64,000 nt of DNA from Amycolatopsis thermoflava N1165 (GTDB lineage: Bacteria > Actinomycetota > Actinomycetes > Mycobacteriales > Pseudonocardiaceae): positions 7,023,909 through 7,087,908 of the forward strand of contig NZ_KI421511.1 of assembly GCF_000473265.1 (NCBI RefSeq), written 5' to 3'. Under the pieces are notes generated by a model, which was given only the letters and a program-made list of their open reading frames with translations, ran no database searches and was not told the DNA's origin. Each line of letters starts with the position of its first letter. The first letter of the stretch is position 1. Below, piece after piece: positions 5,188-64,000 of the stretch. A program made the position numbers and the translations under genes.

Positions 5188-5295
5188 CCGCGCGGGGTTT
5201 GGTGCCGGTCGGATTCGGCGGGGTGGTTGGCCGGTTCCGAGACGACCCCTGTCCCAGAACTGCCTCTTGCCCTGTGCCCTCAGACCTGAACCGCC

Positions 5296-5475
5296 GCGGT
5301 TGTTGAAGGCGGCTAGGACCCTGCTGCGGTTGTTGAAGGCGGCTAGGACCCTGCTGCGGTTGTTGAAGGCGGCTAGGACCCTGCCGCGGTTGTTGAAGGC
5401 GGCTAGGACCCTGCCGCGGTTGTTGAAGGCGGCTAGGACCCTGCCGCGGTTGTTGAAGGCGGCTAGGACTCTGCC
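5296..5475 (+). repeat. 30-bp tandem repeat, six copies, downstream of ispH
   Basis: Six head-to-tail copies of a 30-bp unit start at 5296, 5326, 5356, 5386, 5416 and 5446, each opening with gcggttgttgaaggcggcta. They are nearly identical, differing at a few positions (ctgct or ctgcc ends, one t for c in the last copy). There are no spacers, so this is a minisatellite and not CRISPR. The period is a multiple of three, so several frames stay open by chance. The array begins 108 bp after the ispH stop. Confidence 0.97.
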
Positions 5476-5757
5476 CAGCTCGGCGCGCTGCGTCTGGCCG
5501 AACTCTGCGCATCGGTTGCTCCGGTACTGACTTCACAGCGCTGGGGCACCGGCTCCACAGCCCCGACGCCAATCCCACTGCAGCCCGCGCTTGTCCTCGC
5601 CGCAGCCTCGGCGTCCGTCCGCTCCACGGCCCAGGCGCTCGTCCCGACCGGAGCCCGGCGCGCTCGCCTCAACGCCAGCACGCCGGCTTCGCTGGAGTCC
5701 GGCCCGCTGGGGCAGTTAGCACGTTGCGATCTCGGGCGTGGCTGTCTTGAGCCCGGC
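5476..5757. other. Non-coding stretch between two tandem-repeat arrays
   Basis: About 280 bp lie between the 30-bp and 37-bp arrays. I find no credible start with ribosome site and no homology. The open frames here have abnormal composition (Arg/Ser/Pro/Ala-rich) and look like chance frames in GC-rich DNA. No clear terminator hairpin is visible for either converging gene. Confidence 0.6.
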
Positions 5758-5905
5758 CTGCTGCCGCAGCTGGCAGATCGCCCGCTCAGGCGTCCTGCTG
5801 CCGCAGCTGGCAGATCGCCCGCTCAGGCGTCCTGCTGCCGCAGCTGGCAGACCGCCCGCTCAGGCGTCCTGGTTCCAGCGCAGGCAGACCGCACTCTCAG
5901 GCGTC
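5758..5905 (-). repeat. 37-bp tandem repeat that reiterates the 3' end of the DUF6542 gene
   Basis: Four units start at 5758, 5795, 5832 and 5869 with a 37-bp period. Each carries ctgctgccgcagctggcaga and ends in tcaggcgtc; the fourth, nearest the gene, is more diverged. Read on the minus strand, tcaggcgtc is GAC GCC TGA, the last two codons and stop of the adjacent DUF6542 gene. The array therefore looks like tandem duplication of that gene's 3' end plus 28 bp of downstream DNA. Because 37 is not divisible by three, the array itself is not a repeat-protein frame. Confidence 0.93.
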
Positions 5906-60387: not shown

Positions 60388-60461
60388 CCGGTGTGCTCAG
60401 TTCGTGACGTCTTCGCAGGGTCGGACGTCACGAACGGTCTCCGTAGTGCGAATATGTGGTC

Positions 60462-61139
60462 ATGAAGGCACGTGTGTTGGTCGTCGACGACGACCCCGCT
60501 CTCGCGGAGATGCTCACCATCGTGCTGCGCGGCGAGGGGTTCGACACCGCGGTGGTGGCGGACGGCTCCCGGGCGCTGCCCGCCCTGCGGGAGCTGAAGC
60601 CCGATCTCGTGCTGCTCGACCTGATGCTCCCCGGCATGAACGGCATCGACGTCTGCAAGGCGATCCGGGCCGAGTCGGGCGTGCCGATCGTCATGCTCAC
60701 CGCGAAGAGCGACACGGTCGACATCGTGCTGGGCCTGGAGTCCGGCGCCGACGACTACGTGGTCAAGCCGTTCAAGCCGAAGGAGCTGGTCGCCCGCGTG
60801 CGCGCCCGGCTGCGGCGCACGGAGGCCGAGCCCGCCGAGACGCTCACGATCGGTGACCTGACCATCGACGTGCCAGGTCACGAGGTGACCCGGGAGGGCA
60901 AGGCCATCCCGCTCACCCCGCTGGAGTTCGACCTGCTGGTCGCCCTGGCCCGCAAGCCCCGCCAGGTGTTCACCCGCGAGGTCCTGCTCGAGCAGGTCTG
61001 GGGCTACCGGCACGCGGCCGACACCCGCCTGGTCAACGTGCACGTGCAGCGGCTGCGCTCGAAGGTCGAGAAGGACCCCGAGCACCCCGAGGTCGTCCTG
61101 ACCGTGCGCGGCGTCGGGTACAAGGCGGGCCCGCCGTAA
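60462..61139 (+). CDS. mtrA: Response regulator MtrA
   Basis: The 225-residue OmpR-type regulator has receiver residues VVDDDP, phospho-Asp53 in LLDLMLPGMNG, Lys in YVVKPFKPKEL, and a winged-helix domain ending VRGVGYKAG. It closely follows mycobacterial MtrA, an essential regulator of cell division, cell-wall turnover and osmoprotection. The ATG at 60462 is preferred; a GTG two codons upstream is possible. mtrB starts seven bases after its stop. Confidence 0.97.
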   Translation: MKARVLVVDDDPALAEMLTIVLRGEGFDTAVVADGSRALPALRELKPDLVLLDLMLPGMNGIDVCKAIRAESGVPIVMLTAKSDTVDIVLGLESGADDYVVKPFKPKELVARVRARLRRTEAEPAETLTIGDLTIDVPGHEVTREGKAIPLTPLEFDLLVALARKPRQVFTREVLLEQVWGYRHAADTRLVNVHVQRLRSKVEKDPEHPEVVLTVRGVGYKAGPP

Positions 61140-61146
61140 CAGACAC

Positions 61147-62841
61147 ATGAAGCGAAGAGTCCTGGCCTTCGTCCGCGCGGTGCTGCGACTGGCCCCCCGC
61201 GCGGGCGCCTACGCCCGTGGCCGCGCGGTCGCGTTCGGCGTGCTGTGGCGGCGGTCGCTGCAGTTCAAGGTGACCGTGTCGACGCTCGCCCTGTCGTCGG
61301 CGGTCGGTCTCGTGCTGGGCATGGTGCTGCAGAACCAGATCACCCAGCGCCTCACCGACACCAAGCGGCAGGCCGCCGTCGCGCAGACCCTGCAGGTCGT
61401 GCGCACGGCGGAGAACGAGCTGGTCGGCATCAGCGACCAGGACGCGCTGGCCGACCGGCTGCAGAACGCGCTGAAGAAGATCACCAGCAGCTCGTCGGAG
61501 GACCAGGGCACCGCGGCGTCGGCGGCGGGCGCGTTCGAGCCGGTGCTGACCGCGGGCGGGGAGGACTCGACCGACTCGGCCGGGCCGATCACCAAGGTGC
61601 CGGACGGCCTGCAGCGGTTCGTCGAGAACAACCAGGTCGCCTGGCAGATCAACACCGACACCGACGCGGACGGCACCCGCACGACGCACCTGATCGTCGG
61701 CGCGCCGGTCACCAGCACCGGCCGCCCGATCCAGCTGTACCTGCTGTTCCCGATGACCGCGGAGCAGAACACCGTCCAGACGGTGCAGAACACGCTGCTG
61801 GTCGGTGGTCTCGTGCTGCTGGTCCTGCTGGCCGGCATCGCGAACCTGGTTACCCGGCAGGTCGTGCGCCCGGTCCGGCAGGCCGCGGCGGCCGCCGCCC
61901 GGTTCGCGGGTGGTGAGCTGGACGAACGTCTGCCGGTGACGGGTGAGGACGACCTGTCGAAGCTCGCCGTGTCCTACAACGAGATGGCGGCGAGCATCCA
62001 GCACCAGATCCGGCAGCTGGAGGAGTTCGGCACGCTGCAGCGCCGGTTCACCTCGGACGTGTCGCACGAGCTGCGGACCCCGTTGACGACGGTGCGGATG
62101 GCGGCGGACGTGCTGCACGCGTCGCGTGAGCAGTTCCCCGCCGGGCTGGCTCGGTCCACCGAGTTGCTGGTCGACGAGCTGGACCGGTTCGAGGCGCTTC
62201 TCGGCGACCTGCTGGAGATCAGCAGGCTGGACGCCGGTGTCGAGGAGCTGGCCGCGGAGTTCATCGACGTGTCGTCGATCGCGCGGCGCGCGGTGGAGCA
62301 GGTGCGGGTGATCGCGGGCAACGCGGAAACCGAGATCGAGCTGGAGCTGCCCGAGGAGGAGACGCTCGCCGAGATCGACGCCCGCCGCGTCGAGCGGATC
62401 CTGCGCAACCTGCTGGCCAACGCGGTCGACCACAGCGAGGGCAACCCGGTGCGGCTCACGCTGGCGGCGAACGAGCACGCGGTCGCGATCACAGTCCGGG
62501 ACCACGGTGTCGGCCTGCGGCCAGGGGAGGCCGACCTGGTGTTCAACCGGTTCTGGCGCGCGGACCCGTCGCGCAACCGCCGCACCGGCGGCACCGGACT
62601 GGGGCTGGCGATCAGCCACGAGGACGCCCGCCTGCACGGCGGCCAGCTGGAGGCGTGGGGCGCGCCAGGGCACGGCGCGTGCTTCCGGCTGACGCTGCCG
62701 CGCAAGCAGGACGAGCCCTTCGAGGAGAGCCCGCTGCCCCTGGTCCCGGACGACGCTCCGGCGACCAACGGGCACCTGCAGATCGGCCTGCCGACCGAGT
62801 ACACGATCACGATCGGCGAGATGCGCAAGGAGGACGCATGA
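61147..62841 (+). CDS. mtrB: Sensor histidine kinase MtrB
   Basis: This 564-residue kinase has a basic N-terminus, membrane spans at about 38-60 and 215-240 around an external domain, a HAMP domain, phospho-His in SDVSHELRTPL (His307), an N box NLLANAVDHSEG, and [10 protein letters not shown] Ser/Thr/Glu-rich cytoplasmic tail ends in KEDA. It phosphorylates MtrA; LpqB is its accessory lipoprotein. Its stop overlaps the ATG of the repeat ORF (ATGA). Confidence 0.96.
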   Translation: MKRRVLAFVRAVLRLAPRAGAYARGRAVAFGVLWRRSLQFKVTVSTLALSSAVGLVLGMVLQNQITQRLTDTKRQAAVAQTLQVVRTAENELVGISDQDALADRLQNALKKITSSSSEDQGTAASAAGAFEPVLTAGGEDSTDSAGPITKVPDGLQRFVENNQVAWQINTDTDADGTRTTHLIVGAPVTSTGRPIQLYLLFPMTAEQNTVQTVQNTLLVGGLVLLVLLAGIANLVTRQVVRPVRQAAAAAARFAGGELDERLPVTGEDDLSKLAVSYNEMAASIQHQIRQLEEFGTLQRRFTSDVSHELRTPLTTVRMAADVLHASREQFPAGLARSTELLVDELDRFEALLGDLLEISRLDAGVEELAAEFIDVSSIARRAVEQVRVIAGNAETEIELELPEEETLAEIDARRVERILRNLLANAVDHSEGNPVRLTLAANEHAVAITVRDHGVGLRPGEADLVFNRFWRADPSRNRRTGGTGLGLAISHEDARLHGGQLEAWGAPGHGACFRLTLPRKQDEPFEESPLPLVPDDAPATNGHLQIGLPTEYTITIGEMRKEDA

Positions 62842-63620
62842 GTGAGCTGCCCGCGACGCCGCTCAAGCGCCCCAGCCCGCGGTTCCGTGTGGTGCGCGGC
62901 GCCGGCCCCGTGAGCGCTGCTGTTCCGCTGCGTTTCGACCGGGCACGCGGCGGCCACTCTTCGGGCGCGGCCCGGCCCGGGGTGGGGCGGTCATTCGGCG
63001 CGGCCTTGCCTGGGGTGGGGCGGTCTGTGGGTGTGGCCCTGCCTGGGGTGGGGCGGTCTGTGGGCGTGGCTCTGCCTGGGGCGGGGTGGTCTGTGGGCGT
63101 GGCTCTGCCCGGGGTGGGGCGGTCATTCGGCGCGGCCCGGCCTGAGGTGGGGCGGTCTGTGGGTGCGGCCGTGCCTGGGGTGGGGCGGTCTGTGGGTGTG
63201 GCCCGGCCCGGGGCACTTCGCTCCGTAGGCGCAGTTCTTCCCGGGGCGGCGGCTTCCTCCTGGAGTGCAGCTGGTCTTGAGGCGGGTCGGTCTTTGGGTG
63301 CAGCTGTTCCCGGGCGGCGCCGCTTCTCGAGCTCGGCTGCTCCCGGGACACGTCGCACCTTGAGCGCAATCCTTCCCGAAGTGGGCCGCCTCTCTGCTGT
63401 TGCCGGGGCGGGTCGCTGCTTGAGCGCAGTCCTTCCCGAGGTGGGCCGTCTCTCTGCTGTTGCCGGGGCGGGTCGCTCCTTGAGCGCAGCCGTTCCCGGG
63501 GTGTGCCCCTCCTTCGGCGGAGCTGTTCTCGGGGCCGCTCGCTCGTTGAGCGCGGCCCTGCCCGAAGCGCGGCTCCCGCTGGCCGGCCGGGCGCGGCTGT
63601 CCACCCGGGAGGGCATGTGA
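62838..63620 (+). CDS. 260-residue repeat ORF between mtrB and lpqB
   Basis: The frame starts at an ATG overlapping the mtrB stop (ATGA) and ends at a TGA that overlaps the lpqB GTG (GTGA). It is thus open across the entire gap of an operon in which mtrB and lpqB are normally adjacent. The centre is eight to nine 11-residue repeats of the type VGRSVGVALPG, and the second half contains repeats of the type LSAVLPEVGRLSAVAGAGRS. Composition is Gly/Ala/Val/Arg/Pro/Ser, without signal peptide or known domain. It may be a real coupled protein or expanded DNA that kept a frame; the minus strand is also open. Confidence 0.5.
   Translation: MSELPATPLKRPSPRFRVVRGAGPVSAAVPLRFDRARGGHSSGAARPGVGRSFGAALPGVGRSVGVALPGVGRSVGVALPGAGWSVGVALPGVGRSFGAARPEVGRSVGAAVPGVGRSVGVARPGALRSVGAVLPGAAASSWSAAGLEAGRSLGAAVPGRRRFSSSAAPGTRRTLSAILPEVGRLSAVAGAGRCLSAVLPEVGRLSAVAGAGRSLSAAVPGVCPSFGGAVLGAARSLSAALPEARLPLAGRARLSTREGM
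62949..63245 (+). repeat. 33-bp tandem repeat inside the mtrB-lpqB gap
   Basis: A 33-bp period is clear from the gtggggcggtc units at 62982, 63015, 63048, 63081 (variant), 63114, 63147 and 63180, with decayed copies on both sides. Because 33 is divisible by three, the units read as 11-residue repeats in the plus frame. Copies differ at several bases, so the array is not brand new. Confidence 0.93.
63361..63500 (+). repeat. 60-bp tandem repeat, two full copies plus a part
   Basis: Units start at 63361 and 63421 and a third begins at 63481; each opens tgagcgca and contains ctctctgctgttgccggggc. The first two are about 90% identical. A related fragment (tgagcgcggccctgcccgaag) recurs near 63546. 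In the plus frame the unit reads as a 20-residue repeat. Confidence 0.9.
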
Positions 63621-64000
63621 GGGTCCTGCCGCGCCTGTTCGCCTTGTTCGCCTGCCTTGTGCTCGCCGCGGGGTGTGCGAACGTGCCCGAGGAATCGCAG
63701 CCCGTCGCCGTTCCGCAGCAGGAGCTTGGGCAGCCGGTCAACCCGGACGTGCCGCAGCCGGCGAAGGACCTGGACGCGCTGACCGTCGTCCGCGACTTCG
63801 TCCGCGCGAGCGCCCAGCCGATCAGCAACAACGCCGCCGCGCGCATGTACCTCGACGAGGGAGCGGGCAAGGCGTGGACGCCCGGCAAGGTCATCACGAT
63901 CATCGACGACGTATTCGCCACCGTCCCGGCCACCGGCGCGGACACGACGGCGAACCCGAACGAGGTCAACGTCGTGCTGCGCGGCACCGGCCTGGGCACG
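63617..64000 (+). CDS. lpqB: Lipoprotein LpqB, N-terminal part (cut by window edge)
   Basis: From the GTG at 63617 the frame runs to the window end (128 codons). It has a signal peptide with lipobox LAAGC, followed by ANVPEESQPV and an exported domain (PAKDLDALTVVRDFVRASAQ; ARMYLDEGAGKAW). This is the start of LpqB, the MtrB-associated lipoprotein with GerMN and beta-propeller domains. The start overlaps the stop of the repeat ORF. Confidence 0.93.
   Translation, partial: MRVLPRLFALFACLVLAAGCANVPEESQPVAVPQQELGQPVNPDVPQPAKDLDALTVVRDFVRASAQPISNNAAARMYLDEGAGKAWTPGKVITIIDDVFATVPATGADTTANPNEVNVVLRGTGLGT

Follow-up and report, generated by a model that had tools for sequence, protein, structure and literature searches.

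We describe an open reading frame between mtrB and lpqB of Amycolatopsis thermoflava N1165 (positions 62838-63620 of the window, that is, of the whole 64,000-nucleotide stretch of DNA that was analysed), which is probably a bridge cistron: a minisatellite-grown insert that preserves the translational coupling of mtrB and lpqB, its translation and the dependence of LpqB on it being inferred. The insert has a precise position and needs a single change on the tree of its flanks, and it keeps both overlaps, its Shine-Dalgarno motifs and its frame while the sequence between them turns over rapidly. The frame is probably retained so that ribosomes can pass to lpqB, and not for a function of the encoded protein.

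The open frame (Table 1) runs for 783 bp from an ATG on the plus strand. It starts within the ATGA that contains the end of mtrB at 62841, and it stops within the GTGA at 63617-63620, in which 63617-63619 is the GTG start of lpqB. Both overlaps described in the earlier note are thus present in the sequence, and the 11- and 20-residue repeats that it pointed out are recovered by Tandem Repeats Finder as arrays of 33 and 60 bp; the repeats of this segment clearly exceed chance. A response-regulator-like frame upstream of mtrB (60456-61139) is presumably mtrA, judging from its position. A consensus scan found no internal promoter or terminator in the insert, and such a consensus may miss some actinobacterial promoters.

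Table 1. Features of the mtrB-lpqB junction, in window positions.
Feature	Positions	Strand	Evidence
mtrB, MtrAB system histidine kinase	61147..62841	+	NCBIfam NF040691 MtrAB_MtrB E 9.5e-194; Pfam HAMP, HisKA, HATPase_c
AGGAGG Shine-Dalgarno, within mtrB 3' end, 4 nt ahead of ORF start	62828..62833	+	9/9 near-clade genomes
ATGA, mtrB stop / bridge ORF start	62838..62841	+	sequence; identical in 3/3 carriers
Bridge ORF, 260 aa, Arg/Ala/Gly/Ser/Val/Pro-rich, pI ~12, without predicted fold	62838..63620	+	
ORF 5' end, 16 codons; window vs G009, one silent difference	62838..62885	+	
33-bp (11-residue) tandem array, 7.6 copies	62963..63213	+	Tandem Repeats Finder score 320; units in phase
60-bp (20-residue) tandem array, 2.5 copies	63352..63498	+	Tandem Repeats Finder score 245
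ORF 3' end common to all carriers, 11 codons + stop; bears new lpqB Shine-Dalgarno and start	63585..63620	+	
GGAGG, lpqB Shine-Dalgarno inside ORF, 4 nt ahead of GTG	63608..63612	+	3/3 carriers
lpqB, MtrAB-system lipoprotein, 5' part, continues past window end	63617..64000	+	NCBIfam NF010141 LpqB E 2.5e-20, first 127 aa

The junction was read in 19 Amycolatopsis genomes, of which G000 is the genome of the window. The insert is present in three of them: G000 (783 bp, 260 aa), G017 (516 bp, 171 aa) and G009 (240 bp, 79 aa). The remaining 16 genomes lack the insert, in line with the earlier note's statement that mtrB and lpqB are normally adjacent, and in them the lpqB match starts at most 48 nt from the mtrB stop, a figure to be read with the possibility that the match starts a few codons inside lpqB. 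In a second collection of 80 mtrB loci, which overlaps the 19 genomes partly in species, a large mtrB-lpqB gap occurs only in L007 (511 nt; the next largest is 158), and this locus and G017 are one and the same A. tucumanensis contig; within the collection, L069 lacks an lpqB within reach, and the lpqB match is not the next gene downstream in L052 or L060. The flank tree places the three carriers in one clade (support 100/100), so that one change suffices, with two empty-site species as sister, G006 and G015, whose coordinates and sequence agree with those of the loci L008 (A. deserti) and L009 (A. thermalba). The insert looks like a single recent gain.

The insert appears confined to this site. 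Among 33-40 candidates scored per genome, the 19 genus genomes held no further copy, and copies elsewhere in the genome, which would mark a dispersed satellite family, were not found. A 19-base motif, with at most two mismatches, gave 30-44 matches per carrier, 19-34 per empty-site genome and 11-21 in controls, among the matches listed. A search of 390 genomes of the family (six candidates scored in each) returned one weak match in a non-carrier, antisense to what we take to be a pentapeptide-repeat protein, and this candidate was rejected. Twelve comparisons of the insert with the mtrB and lpqB flanks, as possible sources of its sequence, gave none above shuffles (P 0.09-0.89). Near mtrB in other Amycolatopsis, we also observed ORFs of 51 and 76 aa (L018:3831-3986 and L019:3080-3310, respectively), whose codons are unlike those of the host and which have overlaps on either side.

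What the three inserts share lies at their borders. The ATGA start, the GTGA stop overlap and the open frame are the same in all carriers at 79, 171 and 260 aa, and the 3' ends read CGGGAGGGCATGTGA or CGGGAGGGCGTGTGA. The AGGAGG motif within the end of mtrB precedes the presumed lpqB start in the near-clade genomes without the insert and the ORF start in the carriers, each of which has a GGAGG of its own ahead of the lpqB GTG. Stops, frameshifts and changes other than multiples of three, which the earlier note had named as signs of a non-coding frame, are absent from the two other carriers, and the lengths are multiples of three. Between the borders, the alignable parts of the insert ends diverge by 15.4% and 10.4% between the window and G017, whose flanks are 97.7% identical, and the middle consists of repeat turnover, G017 holding a 51-bp array of 4.1 copies. 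Insert length thus varies more than threefold among the carriers, and tandem units within 10-100 bp combined with copy number that differs between relatives (240, 516 and 783 bp) are the marks of a minisatellite. A motif model of the 33-bp unit matched the three inserts 27 times, always in phase 0 and at spacings of 33, 36, 51, 60 and 102, with the reservation that 20 of the 27 had trained the model, the threshold was lenient and some of the remaining matches are weak. The open frame alone is not surprising, because at 75% GC the probability of an open frame in dinucleotide shuffles is about 0.20 for the window insert (0.2-0.34 for the mtrB-lpqB inserts). The retention of the same frame and both overlaps in all three inserts, despite their unequal length, exceeds chance.

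By codon use and positional GC, the ORF does not resemble an established host gene. The window ORF has GC fractions of 0.79/0.72/0.74 at the three codon positions; the corresponding values are 0.73/0.46/0.96 for mtrB and 0.72/0.50/0.94 for a training set of 588 host ORFs, picked for high GC3, a choice that favours a host-unlike result for the insert. Codon scores in frame 0 are -0.55 (G000), -0.31 (G009) and -0.44 (G017), compared with a median of about +0.55 for host pieces and, under the same model, +0.70 for mtrB and +0.54 for the start of lpqB. With 1% quantiles of -0.11, -0.50 and -0.25 for host pieces of 260, 79 and 171 codons, G000 and G017 fall below the 1% quantile, and the score of G009 is above its 1% but below its 5% quantile. 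In none of the three inserts is frame 0 the top-scoring frame, and frame +1 exceeds it in the window and in G017. The codon-bias comparison proposed in the earlier note therefore went against a coding gene of the usual kind, with the window ORF below the 1% quantile and its positional GC flat.

Constraint on the amino acid sequence is weak at most. The pN/pS ratio is 0.71 and 0.51 at the insert ends and 0.60 between 22 repeat units; for the units, the other frames give 1.5 and 1.1 on the plus strand and 1.5, 1.1 and 0.62 on the minus strand. Third codon positions of the units vary more (column permutation P 0.0015), which is the best sign of selection on the peptide and hints at it, and one minus frame shares this sign. 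Nonsynonymous differences per site between the window and G017 reach 0.14 and 0.08 at the insert ends, against a dN close to 0.002 for the end of mtrB and 0.02 for lpqB (an lpqB comparison between G000 and G006, being out of register, was left out). The ORF has no match in Pfam, NCBIfam, PHROG or PDB, nor in the phage, plasmid or viral-contig collections, and the insert has none in Rfam; the searches made returned no homologue outside the mtrB-lpqB site. An AlphaFold model, based on an alignment of two sequences, predicted no fold (pLDDT 33).

A second bridge ORF, of 136 aa, occurs in the same genome between two permease genes that we take to be FecCD-like (L174:10068-10478, minus strand; G000:C1:7010068-7010478). 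It starts at a TGATG and stops at an ATGA and, in our reading, contains an altered copy of the last part of the gene upstream, in another frame, which suggests growth by local duplication. Nine near genomes were searched and eight were readable; the bridge is present in six (62-184 aa), all open with identical overlaps and frame, and in the two genomes that lack it the downstream frame begins at that TGATG. Four pairs gave pN/pS of 0.58-0.96. When the inserts of both junctions are pooled, all nine are open in frame +0, and the remaining five frames are open in 2, 0, 4, 4 and 1 of them. Multiplied over the inserts, the shuffle probabilities of an open frame give 10^-3.6, which is overstated because the carriers are related and because the permease junction was found through its open frame in G000. 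Since the individual probabilities are 0.21-0.73 and the nine inserts share ancestry, the evidence from the frame is moderate.

Scans for ORFs that bridge co-directional gaps placed these cases in the wider genome. The first covered 719 pairs with 121 gaps of at least 150 nt, three of them bridged, and the bridged gap at L159 was dropped for want of overlaps. A wider scan of 2.464 Mb, with 1,471 co-directional pairs and 329 gaps of at least 120 nt, yielded seven coupled-type bridges, and -4/+4 was the commonest offset pair (6 of 55). Codons are clearly non-host in three of the seven (mtrB-lpqB, the permease junction and a 52-aa ORF at G000:C1:7462183-7462341); the other four were dropped, as their codon scores are near or above zero and they look like ordinary or mobile genes. 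The 52-aa ORF, at a third junction (L265) whose neighbours are presumably metallo-hydrolase-like and DedA-like genes, has overlaps at both ends. This junction was searched in nine genomes and read in seven: four are bridged (52, 41, 20 and 20 aa), and the other three, which include inserts of 297 and 336 nt, are unbridged. Bridging is therefore not universal and may hold where coupling matters. A frame kept as the sequence changes, the mark of a translational-coupling ORF, is found in 3 of 3 mtrB-lpqB and 6 of 6 permease inserts, but in only 4 of 7 cases at the third junction.

Minisatellites are frequent in the host genome, with 45 arrays in 1.264 Mb (score at least 140, span at least 80), most of them intergenic, and 86 arrays in 2.464 Mb (34.9 per Mb; L159-L218, L231-L290 and the window). 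The idea of an unusually minisatellite-rich genome was rejected, as the 18.6 per Mb in the 80 mtrB loci comes from many species and one kind of genomic place only, and the samples are too unlike. Under gene calls from a simple codon model, which are approximate, triplet periods are found in 8 of 8 arrays inside called genes, 4 of 15 in convergent gaps, 9 of 16 in co-directional gaps and 4 of 5 in divergent gaps, with one array at an edge. The contrast between genes and convergent gaps suggests that arrays arise freely and that coding context filters them. Two minisatellites were observed in a convergent gap of the window, behind a gene that we take to be IspH: 5293-5475 (30 bp x 6.1, 98% match) and 5757-5905 (37 bp x 4.0), the latter with a non-triplet period and thus a natural non-coding contrast. 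G-quadruplex motifs, considered as a motor of expansion, occur on neither strand of the three mtrB-lpqB inserts; one or two are present in five of the six permease-junction inserts.

Against this background, the insert might be a neutral minisatellite within the operon, stop-free by chance, with lpqB translated from its own Shine-Dalgarno sequence. We consider this unlikely, although several observations fit it: the abundance of arrays in the host, the open frames that are not rare at this GC content, the non-coding-like codons with frame +1 ahead of frame 0 in the window and G017, and the unbridged inserts of the third junction. Chance accounts less readily for overlaps and frame that are kept in every mtrB-lpqB and permease insert at very unequal lengths; that -4/+4 is the commonest offset pair also speaks against a neutral insert, although four of the seven coupled-type matches look ordinary or mobile.

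A new functional protein, arginine-rich, basic and made together with MtrB and LpqB to bind, for example, envelope polymers or nucleic acid, is less likely than a bridge and in our judgement improbable. The regular 11-residue unit in two species, the third-position excess in the units and the 16 initial codons with their one silent change would be expected of such a protein; its codons are nevertheless host-unlike, its amino acids change far faster than those of its neighbours, its length varies more than threefold, and neither a family, a PDB match nor a fold was found. The earlier note described the locus correctly, but the new repeat protein that it offered as one of two options has weak support; its other suggestion, that the insertion matters for the supply of LpqB, fits better, in the form of a translatable bridge that preserves coupling, which is not the form that it had in mind. 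A gene on the minus strand is scarcely credible: a 269-aa frame (62807-63616) is open there in the window, and one minus frame shows the unit pN/pS of 0.62, yet none of the minus frames is open in every carrier, which largely refutes it, no overlap or ribosome-site logic was seen, and such a gene would run antisense to the operon.

The bridge cistron that we favour could have arisen as follows. DNA would have entered exactly at the short mtrB/lpqB overlap in the common ancestor of the three Amycolatopsis species, taking over the ribosome site and start position of the ancestral lpqB for its own start, while its 3' end supplied a new ribosome site and GTGA overlap for lpqB. It would then have grown as a minisatellite with units of 33, 51 and 60 bp, new copies from slippage or unequal crossing-over persisting if they were multiples of three. 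Ribosomes finishing MtrB would restart at once on the bridge, traverse it and restart on lpqB by termination-reinitiation. Selection would keep the frame open from end to end, with little selection on the peptide, because a stop or a frameshift would break the link to LpqB or leave mRNA untranslated and exposed. Coupling may nonetheless be dispensable, as lpqB keeps its own Shine-Dalgarno sequence.

Published work bears on several of these steps. The mtrAB-lpqB genes of Streptomyces overlap and form a single operon; in M. smegmatis, LpqB modulates MtrB (PMC13189361). Reinitiation is nearly abolished in native gene pairs of E. coli and Haloferax when stop and start lie about 20-38 nt apart (PMC10666635). 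This distance dependence is disputed: reporter work cited in the same paper has coupling over 150-850 nt, and a study cited in the review PMC12548453 saw no effect up to +25 nt. In Pseudomonas putida, cbrA requires translation of the preceding ORF, cbrX, for which a shifted peptide of the same length is nearly as good; the same study ascribes a 1.7-fold effect of one mutation to the altered peptide (PMC6591292). The published support for a need of overlap and the cbrA case lead us to interpret the insert as a bridge that is translated and thereby maintains the coupling of LpqB to MtrB.

More tentatively, and with some doubt on our part, bridge cistrons could constitute a distinct class: genes free of any sequence requirement and selected solely for end-to-end translatability, which let minisatellites invade coupled junctions without uncoupling them, have near-random peptides translated and offer a cradle for new genes. 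If so, stop-start overlap junctions would limit what DNA can insert there, the trace of this constraint would be an ORF without a conserved protein, and new peptides would gain a route to translation without a new promoter. Gene finders would miss such ORFs or label them hypothetical proteins. Bridge ORFs, for which empty-site relatives exist as controls, would then let one test in nature whether stop-start overlap is really required for operon coupling on an evolutionary time scale.

Among the matches listed in literature searches on coupling with minisatellites or new genes and on Amycolatopsis repeats, no equivalent was apparent from titles and the beginnings of abstracts. Of the known systems compared here, the closest is cbrX of P. 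putida, a conserved ORF at the head of its operon with a 17-nt overlap with cbrA (PMC6591292). Stop/start overlap and a Shine-Dalgarno sequence at coupling distance, the marks of a cbrX-like coupling ORF, are found at both ends of the insert in all three carriers; unlike cbrX, the bridge ORF is young, hypervariable and repeat-built, and the genes on its two sides adjoin each other directly in relatives. The ATGA and TGATG pairs of termination-reinitiation studies (PMC6728339, PMC10666635), with overlaps of -4 and -1, imply a mechanism like that proposed here, but these studies treat annotated gene pairs, whereas the bridge is a filler-like middle cistron that keeps overlaps on both sides. Bacterial minisatellites and satellites (PMC6749651) resemble the insert in its 33-60 bp tandem units at a single locus; the insert differs in lying outside an established gene without being plainly non-coding, the array itself being the cistron. 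Finally, the bridge is, like bacterial proto-genes and de novo genes (PMC11101190), a lineage-restricted ORF for which no homologues were found, but its translation would arise through operon coupling and not from a recruited promoter.
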